Shown here piece after piece: positions 1 to 6,480 of a stretch of DNA of 64,000 nucleotides. Under the pieces are notes generated by a model. It was not told where the DNA came from and made no database searches. It worked only from the letters and a program-made list of their open reading frames with translations. Source of the stretch: Paludisphaera mucosa (lineage in GTDB: Bacteria; Planctomycetota; Planctomycetia; Isosphaerales; Isosphaeraceae); the NCBI RefSeq assembly GCF_029589435.1, contig NZ_JARRAG010000001.1, positions 672,808 through 736,807 of the forward strand, in the 5' to 3' direction. Position 1 is the first letter of the stretch; every line of letters starts with the position of its first letter. Both the position numbers and the translations under genes were made by a program.

Positions 1-1292
1 GGGTTGATGGCGTTGAACCGCGACTCGCGGTCGATGGCCTCGGCGGTGGGGTAGTAGGTCGGATTCACCGCCCGCCCCAGGGCCCGCGAGCTGGCGAGCA
101 AGGCCTCGGCCGGCTCGACGGCGATGGTCCCCGGCGCGGCGTTCTCGGCCTGCTCGAACGCCTTGTAGGCGTCGAGGAAGGCGCGCGTCTCCTTGTCGGG
201 GTAGCCGGCCTTGATCAGGGCGTCGGGGTCGGCCTTGAGCAGGACCTTCAGCGGCGTCCAGACCGAGTTCTCGGCGAGCCAGGCGGCGTACTTCTTGTCG
301 AAGGCGGCGTCCTCGCCCGGGTCGTGGCGGTCGTCGCTGGGGACGTCGTTCCAGTAGGTGTCGAGCGCCTTGAGCGCGTCGAACTCGATCGGCGAGAGGT
401 CGCGGAGGTTGGCGGCCGTGCGCGCCTTGGGGATGACGACCTTGTAGAAGTCGAGCGCCTCGCGGCCGAAGGGGCGGGGCATGATCCGGACCAGGCCGGC
501 CGACCGCATCTCCTCACCGGAGTACGCCTTGTAAGTCGCCAGCCGATGGCCGACGTCGATGGCCCGCTTCTCGACCTCGGTCAGCCGCGCCGCGAGGGTG
601 GGGCTGGAGTCGAACTTGCGCTTCTGCTCGTCGAGCTGCGCCACCCACTCCATAAACGCTTCGTCGTGGTCGCCGTGGCGGATCTTGGCCTCGTCCAGCT
701 CGTCGGGCGACAGCCACTTGTGGTCTTCCAGGAGCTTGGCCGCCACGTCCTCGAGCGCCTTGCGGTCGCTCGCCTCCAGCTTCGACGCCTTGAGGAAGTT
801 CAGCACCGCCGCGGCGTCCAGCTCTTCCACGTCGGCGAGCAGGGCCAGGCGCTGCTTGTCCTCGGCCGCGGTCTCGGGCCGGGCGGCGATCGCGGCGAAC
901 TTGGCGCGGATGGGGCCGAGCAGGATCTTCCGCTTGAGCGGCAGGTAGTCGACCAGGATGAACGGCTGCGAGTCCCAGAACTCGGGGCGGACGATCCAGT
1001 CGACGAAGGCGGCGACGGGGGTCCAGGTCTCGGCGACCTCGTTGCGGTCGTCCAGCAGCTTGACCGTCTCGCGGCCGAAGACCTGCTTGACCTCCTCGCG
1101 GGCCACGGTGTCCAGCGGCTTGACGCGGCCGTTGTGCATGACGGCCACCCGGCCGATCCGGTCGTACGCCGGCCCGACCCCGAGCTTGGCGGGCCCCGCG
1201 CCCTCGTGACCCGGGGGCGTTACGGCGGCGACCGTCACGACCAGCAGGCCGCAGAGGCCCGTTCCCACAAGCAATCGGCCGTATCGTCTCAT
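1..1292 (-). CDS. Cytochrome c biogenesis protein, CcsA-type fusion (N-terminal part, cut by window edge)
   Basis: About 430 N-terminal codons are visible and the rest lies to the left of the window. The product starts with a short signal/anchor segment (GLLVVTVAAV) followed by a large soluble region opening with RVAVMHNGRVKPLDTVARE. That motif is typical of the long periplasmic domain found ahead of the CcsA/ResC haem-export domain in Planctomycetes and Bacteroidetes. The haem-handling membrane part with the tryptophan-rich motif is not visible, so the CcsA assignment rests on the N-terminal motif and on resB lying 86 nt upstream. ATG at 1292 is chosen because GGGGAGA precedes it. Expected role: with ResB, haem delivery and thioether attachment to apocytochromes outside the cytoplasmic membrane (system II). 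Confidence 0.75.
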   Translation of the reverse strand, partial: MRRYGRLLVGTGLCGLLVVTVAAVTPPGHEGAGPAKLGVGPAYDRIGRVAVMHNGRVKPLDTVAREEVKQVFGRETVKLLDDRNEVAETWTPVAAFVDWIVRPEFWDSQPFILVDYLPLKRKILLGPIRAKFAAIAARPETAAEDKQRLALLADVEELDAAAVLNFLKASKLEASDRKALEDVAAKLLEDHKWLSPDELDEAKIRHGDHDEAFMEWVAQLDEQKRKFDSSPTLAARLTEVEKRAIDVGHRLATYKAYSGEEMRSAGLVRIMPRPFGREALDFYKVVIPKARTAANLRDLSPIEFDALKALDTYWNDVPSDDRHDPGEDAAFDKKYAAWLAENSVWTPLKVLLKADPDALIKAGYPDKETRAFLDAYKAFEQAENAAPGTIAVEPAEALLASSRALGRAVNPTYYPTAEAIDRESRFNAIN

Positions 1293-1378
1293 CGCGTATC
1301 TCCCCGGGATGGCTGAGGGGCGGTGGAAGGCGAGGCGGCCGACGCGGGCTCGGCCCCTGGGTCGCTCGTCGCGGTCGC

Positions 1379-3544
1379 TCACAAAATGTCTTCTTCGGCC
1401 TTCGCCGGCCCGGCGGGCTCGACGGGCGTCGGCAGGCCGGCCTTCTTCGCGGCCTGCTCGCGCTCGCGCCGGCCGCCGTCGGTGAACAGGCCCGCCCGCA
1501 TGTAGAACTGCAGGAAGGTCCCCAGCACGACGAGCAGGCTGCCGGCGTAGATGATCGGCCGGCCCGGGTTGCTCCCCACCTGGAAGACCGACTGGAACTG
1601 GCCGGTCCGCTGCTGGGTGCGGGGGTCGACGATCGGCGAGTAGCGCATCTGGTAGAAGGTGTAGCCGCGGTGGGTCATCGGCTCGTTCATCGAGATCGTG
1701 TGCTCGCGGCCCTTGACCCCCTGGGCGGGGTCCTCGACCTTGACCTGGCTGACGAACTTGGTCGCCTGCTCGGTGCCGGGCTCGAAGCCGACCTCGAAGT
1801 CCTCGAGCTTCAGGTCGAAGCCCAGCGGCTTGCGGTCGACGTCGTAGGCGATCTCGAACGGCCGCGAGCCGACCGGGACCGGGCGGAAGGTCGGGGCTTC
1901 GAGCGACTCGCTGCGCTGGATCCAGACCTCCTCGGTCTTCCCGTCGACGGTCAGCTCGACGAGGCAGGCGGGGACGGCCTCGTCCATCTGGTTGCCCTGA
2001 AGGAACAGGGGCCGGAAGATCCGCTTCTCGACGCCCGCCGGCAGGTAGTCGGCGACCTGGAAGTTGATCGACATCGCGGCGGCCCCGCCGCCGAAAGCGT
2101 CGACCCACTTGCCCGGGGCGATCGGCCCCGACGTCCGCAGCTCGGGCTTGCCGTCCTTGGCGCGGCCGAAGACGCGGTAATACAGCTTCTGGTCGGGCCC
2201 GGCCAGGACGTCGACCTGGCCGAACCGGCCGCTGGTCTTGGGGTCGAGGTCGGGCGGGATCATCAGGTGGACGGCGGCCAGGGCCTCGGGGGGCTTGCCG
2301 CCGTCGACCGCCGGCCGGGGGATGACGTTGGGGAACATCGGCATCGCGCCCATCGCCACGTGCTCGACCACGGAGCCCTCGCCCTTGCCGACGTCGAACA
2401 CGGCGATCGGGATCGACTCCTCGCCCACCACCTTCGCCAGGCCCGCCTCGCCGGTCGGGAAATGGGCGAGCTTCTGGAGCGAGACGGTCAGGTCGCTGTC
2501 GGGCAGCGGCACCTTCTTGTCGGCCGGCGTGTCGAGGACGAAGTCGAAGACGCGGGGCTTGCCGTCCCGGCCCGTGTACCGGAAGCGGGCGACGCCCGTC
2601 GTGCTCTTGTCCAGCGGCGGCTTGAGGAAGTCGTCGACGTAGTCGGCGCGGTCGACCGAGGCGAACGACACGAGCGCCGGCATGCCGTCGCTGCGGGCCG
2701 TCCGGTAGAAGCGGCGGTCGAGCTTGAACCACTGGTCGGATTCATCGGCGTTGGCCAGCCGGGACTCGGGCATGCCGGGGGCCTTGAACTGGAGCAGCAG
2801 CCGGGCCATCGGCTGGCCCGAGGGGTCGGCCTCGTGGAGCGTGTCCGGGGTGGAGGCGGGCAAGTAGCGCTTGACGACCAGCTTGAACGGGTCGGCCGGC
2901 TTGCTCAGGACGTCGGCCTCGTCGCGGACGATCGGGTACCGGCCGCCGGTCAGGCGGTTGAGCGCCAGGTCGAAGATGTTGCGGATCCGGGGCTGGCCGC
3001 CGCCCCAGGGGAAGGGGCCGCTCTCGTCGAACGGCATCGCGAACGACGCCGTGGTTTCCTGGTTGTGGGGGTCGACCTCGCGGAGGCGGAACATCGGGGC
3101 GTCGGTCCGGAGCATCTCGCTGCGGGTCTCGCCCTCCAGCATCCCCACCATCCCCTCGTCGCCCGACCGGAAGTGGACGTACGAGCCTAGGATCAGGATG
3201 AGCAGCCCGGCGTGCGTGACCACGAAGCCGGTCTGCCGCTTCTTCCAGGGGAACCGGATCGACGCCGCGCAGAAGATGTTGATCGCCAGGAAGGCCAGCA
3301 GGATCGAGAACCCGGCGCTCTTGTAGACGAAGGCCTGGGCGGCCTTGGTGCCGTAAGTCGACTCGAACCAGGTGGCGAAGGCGAGCGAGGCGGCCAGGCT
3401 GGAGATCGAGATCACGGCCAGCTTGAGCGACGCGAGGAACTTGTAAACCTCGTCGATCGCCGCCAGGGCCCGGCCGCCGAACGACGCCTTCGCGCCGGGC
3501 GTCGCGGGAGGGGGGCCGGATGACTTCTTGGTGGCCGTCGCCAT
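1379..3544 (-). CDS. resB: Cytochrome c biogenesis protein ResB/Ccs1
   Basis: This 721-residue membrane protein has the ResB layout. Three hydrophobic helices lie near the N terminus (about residues 38-60, 74-95 and 105-125, the last containing FVVTHAGLLILILGSYV with a conserved histidine). A long extracytoplasmic domain follows, then one C-terminal helix (PIIYAGSLLVVLGTFLQFYM, about 665-685) and a charged tail. The family works with CcsA in system II cytochrome c maturation, keeping apocytochrome thiols reduced and attaching haem. The length exceeds many ResB proteins because the periplasmic domain is large, which is usual in this phylum. It lies 86 nt upstream of the ccsA-type gene and 153 nt downstream of the haem-motif sigma factor, all in the same direction. 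Confidence 0.9.
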   Translation of the reverse strand: MATATKKSSGPPPATPGAKASFGGRALAAIDEVYKFLASLKLAVISISSLAASLAFATWFESTYGTKAAQAFVYKSAGFSILLAFLAINIFCAASIRFPWKKRQTGFVVTHAGLLILILGSYVHFRSGDEGMVGMLEGETRSEMLRTDAPMFRLREVDPHNQETTASFAMPFDESGPFPWGGGQPRIRNIFDLALNRLTGGRYPIVRDEADVLSKPADPFKLVVKRYLPASTPDTLHEADPSGQPMARLLLQFKAPGMPESRLANADESDQWFKLDRRFYRTARSDGMPALVSFASVDRADYVDDFLKPPLDKSTTGVARFRYTGRDGKPRVFDFVLDTPADKKVPLPDSDLTVSLQKLAHFPTGEAGLAKVVGEESIPIAVFDVGKGEGSVVEHVAMGAMPMFPNVIPRPAVDGGKPPEALAAVHLMIPPDLDPKTSGRFGQVDVLAGPDQKLYYRVFGRAKDGKPELRTSGPIAPGKWVDAFGGGAAAMSINFQVADYLPAGVEKRIFRPLFLQGNQMDEAVPACLVELTVDGKTEEVWIQRSESLEAPTFRPVPVGSRPFEIAYDVDRKPLGFDLKLEDFEVGFEPGTEQATKFVSQVKVEDPAQGVKGREHTISMNEPMTHRGYTFYQMRYSPIVDPRTQQRTGQFQSVFQVGSNPGRPIIYAGSLLVVLGTFLQFYMRAGLFTDGGRREREQAAKKAGLPTPVEPAGPAKAEEDIL

Positions 3545-3697
3545 GATGTCGCACCTGCCGGGGAGGGAGGATGGAAGTCGGGGATGAGTCGGGCGGGCCG
3601 GGACGGGCCGTGGTCGGCCGCCCCGAGATCTCTCGATTCTAATCCAACGCCCCCGCGAGCGGCCAGGGTCGTCGCCGGGGGGGGACGGATCGAGCGA

Positions 3698-4678
3698 TCA
3701 GGGGAGCGCGACGTGGCAACGCACGCACGTCGCGAGCAGCCGCGACGCGGCGACCGCGCCCTCGGCCCGATGGTCGGCCAGGTCGAGGGCCGCCAGCCTC
3801 GTCTCGGCCGCGAAGCCGCGCCGAGATTCCCGGACGGAGGCCGGAGCCCGCTCCGCAGACTCCTCGGCGTGCTCGACCCCGAGGTCGAGTCGCGCAGGAT
3901 CGAGGCCCTGCCATTCCTTACGCTCCAGGGCGCCGAGGAGTTCTCGAAGCTCGGAAGCCGGTTCGGCTTTATCGTTTATCGCGAGGTCGGGCCGGCGGGA
4001 GTTTATGCCCCGATCGGGGGATTCGACCGAACGGTGCGGCCCCGAGACGATCCAGGCCGCCAGGGCCAGCAGCACGCCGAGCGTCACTCCCCGGCCGACC
4101 AGGCTTTCGCGAAGCAGGGAGCGGGCGCGGACCAGGCGGCGGGAGATCGAGCCCACGGGATAGCCCAGCTCGACGGCGGCCTCGCGGTTGCTCTTGCCCT
4201 GGAGGTAGCAGAGGACCACGGGGTCGCGATACTTCCCGGGCAGGTCGTCCACGGCCCCGTCGATCGCCCTCCGGACGTCACGGCGCTCGACCTCGTCGGC
4301 GAACAGCGAGAGCGGGCATTCGGGCTCGGGCAACGCCCCCGCATCGCCGAAGTTCCAGCCGGGCGGGAGGTTGGAGACGGGGGTCTCGCGCCGGCCGCGG
4401 CGGGCAAGTTCGCTGCGAGCATGGAGGGCCAGCCGTCGGGCGACGTCCCGGACCCAGCCGCCGATCGAGGCCCGCCAGGCCACGTCGGAAGCCCGCAGGG
4501 ACAGGAGCAGGAACGTCGCCTGGAAGACGTCCTCGGCGTCGTGCTCGCTCCGAAGGAATTGCCGGCAGACGCGCCGGACGTGGGGGCCGTGCCGCTTCAC
4601 CAGTTCGGCGAACGCGGCCTCCTCCCGCCCCTCGGCGAACCGTCTCAGCAAGATCGCGTCCGTGGCCCGCTCGATCAT
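3698..4678 (-). CDS. ECF sigma factor with transmembrane anchor and C-terminal CxxCH haem motif
   Basis: This 326-residue protein has sigma region 2 at about residues 17-85 (with DAEDVFQATFLLL) and region 4 at about 132-190 (YRDPVVLCYLQGKSNREAAVELG, shortened form YLQGKSNREAA, then a helix-turn-helix). A basic stretch is followed by one hydrophobic helix at 198-213 (TLGVLLALAAWIVSG), then about 110 residues predicted to be mostly helical and outside the membrane. The protein ends ATCVRCHVALP, a CxxCH motif (C318, C321, H322) covalently binding haem in c-type cytochromes. Its position near the C terminus of a helical domain resembles cytochrome c-prime. ECF factors with long C-terminal extensions are known in Planctomycetes; the haem motif is what I find unusual. 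The gene sits 153 nt upstream of resB, and an inverted repeat lies before it (4732-4750). No anti-sigma gene is adjacent. Confidence 0.85.
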   Translation of the reverse strand: MIERATDAILLRRFAEGREEAAFAELVKRHGPHVRRVCRQFLRSEHDAEDVFQATFLLLSLRASDVAWRASIGGWVRDVARRLALHARSELARRGRRETPVSNLPPGWNFGDAGALPEPECPLSLFADEVERRDVRRAIDGAVDDLPGKYRDPVVLCYLQGKSNREAAVELGYPVGSISRRLVRARSLLRESLVGRGVTLGVLLALAAWIVSGPHRSVESPDRGINSRRPDLAINDKAEPASELRELLGALERKEWQGLDPARLDLGVEHAEESAERAPASVRESRRGFAAETRLAALDLADHRAEGAVAASRLLATCVRCHVALP

Positions 4679-4731
4679 CGCGTCTCCGGCCCTCGCCCGC
4701 CTCGGATCCCGTCGTACTCCGTATTATGTCG

Positions 4732-4750
4732 ATTCGCCCCATCGGCGAAT
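4732..4750 (-). promoter_or_regulatory. Inverted repeat upstream of the sigma factor gene, operator candidate
   Basis: ATTCGCC and GGCGAAT form a perfect 7-bp inverted repeat separated by 5 nt (CCATC on the plus strand). It lies 54-72 nt ahead of the ATG at 4678. Reading toward the gene, a CATAAT hexamer, a possible -10, follows a few bases after the repeat, so the palindrome would cover the -35/spacer region. That is a usual place for a repressor or autoregulatory site. The regulator is unknown and no classical -35 hexamer is obvious. Confidence 0.4.
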
Positions 4751-4876
4751 GCGTTTTTCTGGGAAGAGGTCGCGATTCTCTCGGAGTCGGAGTCGCGAAA
4801 CCCCCGTGCAGGGTCGTATCAAAGCGAGATTCCCTCCGGTCGAGGCCGGCCGGGCTTGAACCTCGCCGCCTGGGGG

Positions 4877-5581
4877 CTACAGGGCCGCCGCCAGCTCGCG
4901 ATAGCGGGCGGCCATCCGCGGCCCCTTGCCTTCGTCCTCGTGCTTGAAGAAGACGAAAACCTCCCGCCAGGCTTGTCCGGCCACGCGTTGCACCCAGGCC
5001 GCAAGCTCCGCGTCGCTGTAGTCGAAGCGCCGCAGCCGCAGGTAGCCCCAGTCCGCCGTGGGCACGAACGGGACGTCCAGCTCGCAGTCGGCGTCGGCCA
5101 GGCAGAGAGACGAATTGTGCTCGCGGAGCAGCCCGAAGACCTCGTCGTCGAACCAAGAGGCGTGGCGGAACTCGAACGCCGAGCGGATCGAGGCGGGGAG
5201 CAGGCCGAGGAACGCCTGCAGCCGAGGCGCGTCCTTCTTCATGTTCGGCGGGAGCTGGAACAGCAGCGGTCCCAGGCGCTCTTTCAGGGCCCCGGCGACT
5301 TCGAGCGTCTGCGCCAACGGCTCGCCGCAGTCCTTCAGCCTCCGCGTGTGCGTGATCCGCTGCGGGGCCTTGAGCACGAAGCGGAAGTCGGCCGGCACCG
5401 CGTCCGCCCACCGCTGCACGGTCGCGACGGCGGGGAGGACGCGGAACGTGCCGTTGATCTCGACCGCGCCGAAACGCTCGCCGTAGTAACGGAGCATCCC
5501 CGACGCCGGCAGCTTGCTCGGGTAGAAGCCGCCCTTCCACTCCTTGTAGGAGTAGCCGCTCGTGCCGACGTGGAGTTCCAT
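4877..5581 (-). CDS. DUF72 family protein (YecE-like)
   Basis: The 234-residue product begins MELHVGTSGYSYKEWKGGFY, the signature opening of DUF72 proteins, and continues with FYPSKLPASGMLRYYGERF and later FEFRHASWF and WGYLRLRRFD motifs of the family. DUF72 proteins have a TIM-barrel fold and no firmly established reaction, so no activity is assigned. ATG at 5581 is used because the family always starts at this conserved segment; a longer open frame upstream is not supported. The gene follows the Tat-exported TIM-barrel gene by 20 nt, suggesting co-transcription, and the sigma factor begins 198 nt downstream. Confidence 0.88.
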   Translation of the reverse strand: MELHVGTSGYSYKEWKGGFYPSKLPASGMLRYYGERFGAVEINGTFRVLPAVATVQRWADAVPADFRFVLKAPQRITHTRRLKDCGEPLAQTLEVAGALKERLGPLLFQLPPNMKKDAPRLQAFLGLLPASIRSAFEFRHASWFDDEVFGLLREHNSSLCLADADCELDVPFVPTADWGYLRLRRFDYSDAELAAWVQRVAGQAWREVFVFFKHEDEGKGPRMAARYRELAAAL

Positions 5582-5601
5582 GGGTCGCCCGCGCTTCGGC
5601 C

Positions 5602-6480
5602 TCAGTCGAACAGCAGCTTGTTCATGCGGGCGACGACGTCTTTCATGCGGTCCAGGTCGCCGAGGCCGACCTCGGCGGTGATCCAGCCGTCGTAGCCGAT
5701 CTCGGTCAGGGCGCTTCGGACCGCCGGCCAGTCGATCTCGCCCTCGCCGAGCGGGTAGTCGAACCGCTTGGGCTTGGCGTATTCCTTGATGTGGATCTTG
5801 AGGATCCGCTTGCCCAGCTCGCGGATCCACTCCTGGGGGTAGGCGAACTCGACGACGTTGCCCACGTCGAAATACGCGCCGACGGCCGGGCTCTCGAACT
5901 CGTCGATGTAGCGGGCGAACTCGATCGGGCTGAGGAGGAACTTGTTCCAGACCTCCTCGACCGCGATCTTGACGCCCGCCTGCTCGGCGAAGGGGATGAG
6001 CTTGCGGATGTGGGCCTGCGAGCGTTCCCAGGCCTGGCGGTAGGAGACCTTCTTGTTGACGACCGCCGGGACGACGAGGACGGTGGTCCCGCCGTAGGCC
6101 TTGACGTCGAGGAACTCCTGCTTGATCGCGGCCACCCCGCGCTCGACGACGGCGGGGTCGGGGTCGGAGAGCGGCTCCTGCCAGTGCCGGCCGCCGCTGA
6201 CGCCGTGGATGACTAGGCCGGTCTCGTCGCGGGCGGCGAGGACCTCCTTGAGGTCCAGCTCGTTGGGGCTGATCAGCTCGACGCCCTCGAAGCCGGCCTC
6301 CTTCAGCAGCTTGAAGGTCGGCAGGATGGGGCCCTTGGTCTGGCCGAGCATGAAGGCCCGCTTCCAGGGAGTCTTGGGTGCGAAGGCGGCCGAGGCCGTC
6401 GTCGCGCCCCAGGCCGCGCCCGCCGCGGCACCGGCGGCGGCCGCCAGGAATCCCCTCCGGTCGACGTCTTTCATCCGCAT
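5602..6480 (-). CDS. Tat-exported sugar phosphate isomerase/epimerase family protein (AP endonuclease 2-like TIM barrel)
   Basis: This 292-residue protein has a twin-arginine leader (VDRRGFLAAAAGAAAGAAWG) and then a xylose isomerase-like TIM barrel: FKLLKEAGFEGVELISPNE near the start, IAVEEVWNKFLLSP in the middle, and VGAYFDVGNVV with HIKEYAKPKR toward the end. The E, D and H residues in these strands match the divalent metal site of the AP_endonuc_2 superfamily. Such exported isomerases are abundant in Planctomycetes and are usually linked to inositol or other sugar catabolism, but the substrate cannot be read from the sequence. The gene follows gatB by 16 nt, so it probably shares its transcript even though the functions look unrelated. 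Confidence 0.85.
   Translation of the reverse strand: MRMKDVDRRGFLAAAAGAAAGAAWGATTASAAFAPKTPWKRAFMLGQTKGPILPTFKLLKEAGFEGVELISPNELDLKEVLAARDETGLVIHGVSGGRHWQEPLSDPDPAVVERGVAAIKQEFLDVKAYGGTTVLVVPAVVNKKVSYRQAWERSQAHIRKLIPFAEQAGVKIAVEEVWNKFLLSPIEFARYIDEFESPAVGAYFDVGNVVEFAYPQEWIRELGKRILKIHIKEYAKPKRFDYPLGEGEIDWPAVRSALTEIGYDGWITAEVGLGDLDRMKDVVARMNKLLFD

Follow-up and report, generated by a model that had tools for sequence, protein, structure and literature searches.

In a 64,000-nucleotide stretch of Paludisphaera mucosa DNA (hereafter the window), the minus strand carries at 3698..4678 a gene for an ECF sigma factor whose chain continues into a predicted membrane helix and ends in a haem c motif (CxxCH), and the next genes downstream on the same strand are resB-like and ccsA-like genes of cytochrome c maturation System II. 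The adjacency to haem-attachment genes points to a tail that would let the cell know if its cytochrome factory is working. We give about an even chance to the explanation that the product is a one-protein transmembrane sigma factor reporting on cytochrome c maturation. The fuller version is somewhat less secure than that: a single-chain gauge in which the tail would be matured by ResB-CcsA and its matured or unmatured state would set how strongly its own gene and, by read-through, resB-ccsA are transcribed.

The reading frame starts with ATG and comprises 326 codons plus the stop. Sigma region 2 (residues 26-92, 4403..4603) matched PF04542 (Sigma70_r2) with E 3.7e-9 and region 4 (residues 137-188, 4115..4270) matched PF08281 (Sigma70_r4_2) with E 2.9e-11, both exceeding the curated Pfam cut-offs, and NCBIfam TIGR02937 placed the protein in the ECF superfamily with 73.1 bits against 42.9. 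The protein thus has the two regions, 2 and 4, that define the ECF type. An earlier note, made from the sequence alone, had put an ECF sigma factor at 3698-4678; the assignment and the coordinates were right, and the strand, which it had omitted, is the minus strand.

Between region 4 and the tail lies an uncharged hydrophobic stretch (residues 197-215, 4034..4090, minus strand) with a best 19-residue Kyte-Doolittle mean of 2.02, predicted to form a single membrane helix; AlphaFold2 gave pLDDT below 50 over most of it. A hydrophobic helix at 198-213 had been proposed earlier, and a corresponding stretch follows region 4 in all 18 Isosphaeraceae relatives described below (19-residue means 1.48-2.29, the values below 1.6 being those of G028 and G039) and is kept in 19 of 19 relatives when the single Gemmataceae member, G290, is counted. 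The earlier argument that a basic flank keeps the sigma part inside also held: in each of the 19 relatives the 15 residues preceding the stretch were more positively charged than the 15 following it, with a margin in the window protein of just +3 versus +2. Since the DNA-binding part must be inside, this charge distribution implies that the CxxCH would lie outside the membrane, which is where System II attaches haem. From these sequence features we infer a cytoplasmic sigma part, a predicted membrane insertion and an outward-facing motif.

Relatives were sought in 45 Isosphaeraceae genomes with a profile built from the first seven found. Full-length relatives were detected in 18 genomes with E values up to 3e-82, the next ECF factor among the matches listed having 1.1e-57; in 17 of them the match covered the model completely or almost completely, and in the eighteenth, G004, which is crossed by an N gap, it covered the part of the sequence available. 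They include Paludisphaera soli, of the same genus as the window genome, Aquisphaera insulae and Singulisphaera acidiphila. The other 27 of the 45 genomes yielded no full-length relative, with at most 49 candidates scored per genome, so System II can do without the sigma protein. A class-wide sample of 397 genomes (at most five candidates scored in each) added one relative, L113 of the Gemmataceae genome G290, which also remained the only full-length relative in 95 Gemmataceae genomes (at most 22 candidates each); G258 matched there over the sigma part alone. Given these limits of 49, 5 and 22 candidates per genome, misses do not prove absence.

The haem c motif of the window protein, CVRCH (residues 318-322, with C318, C321 and H322; 3713..3727, minus strand), is separated from the stop codon by four residues. 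All 18 Isosphaeraceae relatives and G290, 19 of 19 in total, have a CxxCH in the corresponding position. The homologue comparison proposed in the earlier note therefore came out in its favour, as both helix and motif are retained throughout, and the observations it had named as speaking against its reading, namely relatives lacking the CxxCH or the helix, or a disordered tail, did not materialise. By this conservation in 19 genomes, and by the lack of any CxxCH in 25 other ECF frames of the same genome (five of which run beyond the DNA examined, their ends unseen), the CxxCH is not a chance motif, and that explanation was rejected.

The window genome (G000, 8.2 Mb) is rich in ECF paralogs, with 39 ECF match rows counting the window protein, some of them pieces of one gene; this abundance is what could be said for a chance or decaying paralog with a meaningless tail. 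We regard that as very improbable, because the protein is kept in 19 genomes of two families, its promoter motif and gene order are conserved, and its members group together on the sigma part. In a quick tree of the sigma part of 70 ECF rows, the CxxCH proteins formed one group with SH-aLRT 93, below the 95 mark. This grouping, obtained without the tail, makes a single acquisition of the tail probable.

The predicted extracytoplasmic tail (residues 216-326, 3701..4033, minus strand) is helical in models and, by profiles, cytochrome c'-like in relatives. The earlier description of about 110 residues ending in CxxCH was accurate; its comparison with cytochrome c' fared unevenly. PF01322 (cytochrome c') matched 11 of 17 tails at E values up to 5, the best being 7.5e-7, and single tails also hit unrelated families (DUF6415, 3.3e-4; ExsE, 9.4e-4). 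When seven tails were scanned singly against the curated cut-off of 26.5 bits, only that of the Gemmataceae relative L113 exceeded it (30.0 bits); L102 (26.2), L103 (25.3), L100 (24.2), L095 (23.6) and G002 (18.8) stayed below, and L094 had no PF01322 match. The window's own tail matched neither PF01322 nor, significantly, any other Pfam family. Searched against PDB sequences, the tail profile found designed helical proteins first, followed by cytochrome b562 (E 0.0058) and cytochromes c' (0.05). The tails of many members end in CxxCHxxFR, which we take to be the class II cytochrome c signature. A tail-only profile run on 392 genomes of the phylum at E up to 1e-8 revealed no close stand-alone relative, its two matches being the sigma proteins themselves; about 11 candidates per genome were scored in the rows shown, which is no proof of absence.

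Structure prediction agreed with a helical character. For the window tail AlphaFold2 gave four helices at low confidence (10-residue pLDDT means of 41-76 from residue 241 on, and below 50 over residues 199-240), whereas the tail of L102 from Singulisphaera acidiphila gave a better bundle (pLDDT 79.4, pTM 0.73). The first Foldseek matches of the L102 model were the Kuenenia small cytochrome pair and cytochromes c', the best with E 0.015 and none at E 0.001 or lower; for the full-length model, the listed Foldseek matches were to sigma factors or to complexes containing them and gave nothing on the tail. VIA-align ranked 6r6o, 6r6m and 6r6n on top for the L102 tail with Z 13.4, 13.3 and 12.5 (for 6r6o, rmsd 2.6 over 103 residues) against a helical-bundle background of 11-12; helical models can reach such Z values without kinship, and the rows past the third were mostly unrelated helical bundles and fusion constructs. 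We take the Kuenenia pair of PDB entries 6r6m and 6r6o to be NaxLS. The structural comparison suggested in the earlier note was thus in line with a helical tail, while the window model had low confidence and the class II likeness of the relative was not significant on its own; likewise a cytochrome c'-type tail received support from PF01322 in relatives, one of them above the cut-off, and none from the window's own tail. The sCache_heme fold (PF11845) was also tried and rejected, since only 2 of 17 tails matched it, at best with E 0.1, and L103 reached 13.0 bits against 24.1.

Class II cytochromes c (PF01322) and the Kuenenia pair carry their CxxCH near the C terminus of a helical bundle. The same position close to the C terminus was found in all 18 Isosphaeraceae relatives and G290, with roughly 100 residues following in five, namely G009 and the four members of genus g17 (G021, G034, G044 and G040). 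In contrast to those cytochromes, the tail here is fused to a sigma factor and poorly conserved outside the CxxCH helix. We read it as a reduced class II haem c domain with predicted haem attachment, on the combined ground of profiles and models.

CxxC pairs can act as redox switches, and the window tail is unrecognised by Pfam, so that a thiol/disulfide or metal site without haem has to be weighed. We consider this quite improbable: the histidine, too, is invariant in 18 of 18 Isosphaeraceae and G290, many members have the CxxCHxxFR ending of the class II signature, and L113 exceeds the PF01322 cut-off.

Among 17 aligned tails (G004 and the near-copy G044 omitted), mean column identity was 37% and the sole invariant residues were the two cysteines and the histidine of the motif. 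This pattern bears on what the tail would sense. The main rival to sensing of haem attachment is a gas or redox sensor, in which a cytochrome c'-like haem would bind NO, CO or O2, or change its redox state, and thereby switch the sigma factor, resB-ccsA merely maturing the tail. It is the main rival because of the cytochrome c' likeness seen in relatives and because of the sCache_heme sensors: NO-binding extracytoplasmic c-type haem sensors exist in other signalling proteins (PMC12889525). However, with only C, C and H invariant in the 17 tails, no fixed ligand pocket is visible, and in the G004 tail the middle is shorter by about 24 residues, yet the CxxCH is kept (at another point of this gene the contig is broken by an N gap). 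We therefore hold a gas or redox sensor to be unlikely, if still well ahead of the other alternatives. Conserved C, C and H amid a drifting remainder fits a part made to be matured rather than a fine ligand pocket, and this pattern together with the adjacency to resB-ccsA favours sensing of haem attachment. The earlier note's proposal of a tethered sigma factor whose haem c tail faces outward stands as an inference; as to the signal, for which it had named redox, gas or haem status, haem attachment is favoured over gas or redox.

A passive device was considered as well, in which haem would only anchor or stabilise the protein and an unlinked partner such as an anti-sigma factor would set activity. 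The faster evolution of the tail would agree with it: going by the printed values, the tail had a higher dN/dS than the sigma part in every one of 8 pairs, with the pair G034-G044 too close to tell. But the tail itself had dN/dS below 1 in 8 of 8 pairs (simple Nei-Gojobori counts), the haem motif is kept in all 19 proteins, and no anti-sigma-like gene was seen among the relatives' neighbours, few of which were scanned with Pfam. We judge such a device improbable.

The SnoaL-like, TPR and cysteine-rich extensions of ECF factors are, as far as known, cytoplasmic, whereas the window protein has a predicted membrane helix leading to an outer haem c-type tail. CorE-type metal-sensing ECF factors have a soluble C-terminal cysteine-rich domain; the tail here has only C318 and C321 and comes after the hydrophobic stretch, so the protein is not of this type. 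What it shares with ECF41, ECF42, ECF56 and CorE/ECF44-ECF238 is the order of regions 2 and 4 followed by a fused, presumably regulatory domain; these C-terminal extensions are thought to control activity (PMC8103513), and ECF56 likewise has one (PMC7730460). In planctomycetes, ECF sigma factors fused to WD40 repeats are known, and ECF sigma factors of Tuwongella are reported in detergent fractions (PMC8567305). Long C-terminal extensions with a hydrophobic segment are common in the window genome, where 18 of 25 paralogs examined reach a 19-residue mean of 1.6; unlike the window protein, the 25 paralog frames show no CxxCH in the DNA examined, and the CxxCH proteins group apart.

The sCache_heme (DUF3365/Tll0287) proteins likewise place a haem c motif in an outer sensor domain, in kinases, chemoreceptors and c-di-GMP enzymes (PMC12889525). 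They differ in fold and in output, which is by kinase, chemotaxis or c-di-GMP, and the word sigma does not appear in the text examined of PMC12889525. A precedent for responding to an unmatured c-type cytochrome is the TorC/TorS circuit of E. coli, which responds to apocytochrome (PMC11727998, PMC8534201), though TorS is reported to bind TorC equally well with and without haem, which warns against models that are too simple (PMC11727998). TorC and TorS are separate proteins and the system is a two-component one, whereas here sensor and sigma factor would be one chain and the linked genes encode the maturation machine.

The resB-like gene (1379..3544, minus strand; PF05140, E 1.8e-18) begins 153 bases after the sigma stop codon and is followed by the ccsA-like gene (1..1292, minus strand), whose N-terminal part lies in the window and whose full version in L052 carries WADYSWGRFWGWDPKEVW. 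A pattern search of resB for the canonical ResB motif VNx1-4P found none, and the ResB call rests on Pfam and similarity. The CcsA protein of the relative G001 matches PF01578, and the tryptophan-rich haem motif WADxSWGRFWGWDxKEVW was found in 15 of 15 loci searched, including the window genome and two unlinked Singulisphaera loci. Both this motif and the attachment of haem outside the membrane by System II are described in PMC4222556. A System II locus, ResB beside CcsA, is thus present next to the sigma gene.

In 16 of 18 Isosphaeraceae, resB is the gene that directly follows the sigma gene, one of these contigs (G040) stopping after resB. The exceptions are two Singulisphaera genomes, G031 and G014, in which resB-ccsA is located elsewhere; the G031 sigma gene adjoins a Gfo/Idh/MocA oxidoreductase gene and G014 looks alike. 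In G290 the order is sigma, a gene for a 356-residue lipoprotein-like protein, and resB. No sigma gene was seen at this site in G011, where a xylose-isomerase-like gene, a frequent upstream neighbour, directly precedes resB (L226). As judged from gene order, the sigma-resB linkage is old yet not obligatory, because it is kept in 16 of 18 genomes and nearly so in G290, broken in Singulisphaera, and the sigma gene is absent from the corresponding site of G011. The L226 locus could serve in comparisons as a naturally vacant site. Upstream of the sigma gene, the window encodes at 4880-5830 a DUF72 protein (PF01904, E 3.1e-62); on visual inspection of the relatives' neighbourhoods, a DUF72-like start was recognised in L048 alone.

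Upstream of the sigma gene lies a conserved, bipartite promoter-like motif, GCATTCG-N15-GACATAAT (4723..4752, minus strand), probably an autoregulated ECF promoter. Its group form, GCATYYG, 14-15 bases, then GRCATNAT or a close variant, stands upstream of the start codons. The corresponding search expression matched 17 of 18 sigma upstream regions versus 0 of 18 downstream regions and 0 of 25 paralog upstream regions, and a mean of 0.04 of 18 simulated regions; as it was derived from these same sequences, the controls weigh more than the hits. In the eighteenth upstream region, that of G003, CGCATAAT replaces GGCATAAT. ECF factors direct RNA polymerase to bipartite promoters, often those of their own genes; the motif has the pattern of such an autoregulated factor and is a candidate promoter. 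No copy of it was seen ahead of resB in Singulisphaera, where that gene is detached, or in 11 further genomes of the family that were tested.

The minus strand from 1200 to 5000, which includes the interval between sigma and resB, showed no terminator-like site, so read-through is possible. The spacer also holds TAGAAT (3636..3641, minus strand), a -10-like element and possible separate resB promoter; since such an element occurs in 14 of the 15 resB spacers inspected, resB may also be transcribed from a promoter of its own. An inverted repeat, ATTCGCC-CCATC-GGCGAAT on the plus strand (4732-4750), overlaps the spacer of the proposed promoter and is not obvious by eye in all relatives.

Searched genome-wide in G000, GCATYYG-N13/16-GRCATDA gave two sites versus five for the reversed control, one being the sigma gene's own motif and the other (L247) reading as within an ABC transporter coding sequence; with up to two mismatches at spacing 15, the sigma gene's own site was the only one, versus 0 for the control. 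Across 17 relative genomes there were 14 exact sites, five of them before the sigma gene (control 0), and seven relative genomes searched with up to two mismatches at spacing 15 gave 18 sites, two before the sigma gene (control 5). Other sigma targets in relatives are therefore possible. The 25 further matches in relatives (L248-L279), more than in the reversed control, may be such targets; a crude frame test put 16 of the 25 inside long frames, but likewise 5 of 7 true sigma sites, and was uninformative.

Taken as a gauge of cytochrome c maturation, the protein could work as follows. The N-terminal sigma part would remain in the cytoplasm, with one helix spanning the membrane and the outer tail forming a reduced class II (cytochrome c'-like) haem c domain; ResB-CcsA (System II) would attach haem to it at the CxxCH, not far from the C terminus. 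The sigma gene would drive itself from its own promoter (GCATYYG-N14/15-GRCATNAT), from which transcription could continue into resB-ccsA. The apo or holo (or thiol) state of the tail would decide the available sigma activity, for example through stability or membrane proteolysis, and in the simplest circuit the operon would feed back on the haem-attachment machinery by supplying more or less ResB-CcsA. Counted against this reading are the window tail, with no cytochrome match and a weak model, the hits of single tails on unrelated families, the designed helical proteins ahead of cytochromes in the PDB search, the unlinked genes of Singulisphaera, the possible separate promoter of resB, and the family genomes in which no full-length relative was found.

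How bacteria match haem-attachment machinery to demand is, to our knowledge, little understood. A sigma factor carrying its own cytochrome-like substrate tail would allow this control to be tested in a single protein. It would also bring covalent haem sensing to the sigma factors, most of whose C-terminal extensions are uncharacterised, together with a transmembrane one-component design that has no anti-sigma factor. Already known are C-terminally extended ECF factors, planctomycete WD40 ECF factors and c-type haem sensors in kinases and chemoreceptors. New here, as far as the literature searched, is the combination of a c-type haem motif with a sigma factor, a membrane helix and resB-ccsA linkage, of which no description was found in that literature, key ECF papers being outside its scope.

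Other CxxCH proteins were also observed. Upstream of resB in G010, L235 encodes at 1500-1856 a protein of 119 residues whose start is signal-like and which has a single CxxCH towards its end; at 2098-3429 the opposite strand encodes a 444-residue protein containing seven CxxCH motifs. A second, different fusion occurs in Planctomycetia MAG-36, the genome of G290, where a 1628-residue open frame (L109:3622-8505) contains ECF regions 2 and 4, two CxxCH far downstream and a match to the hydrazine synthase alpha middle domain (PF18582, E 1.1e-11).
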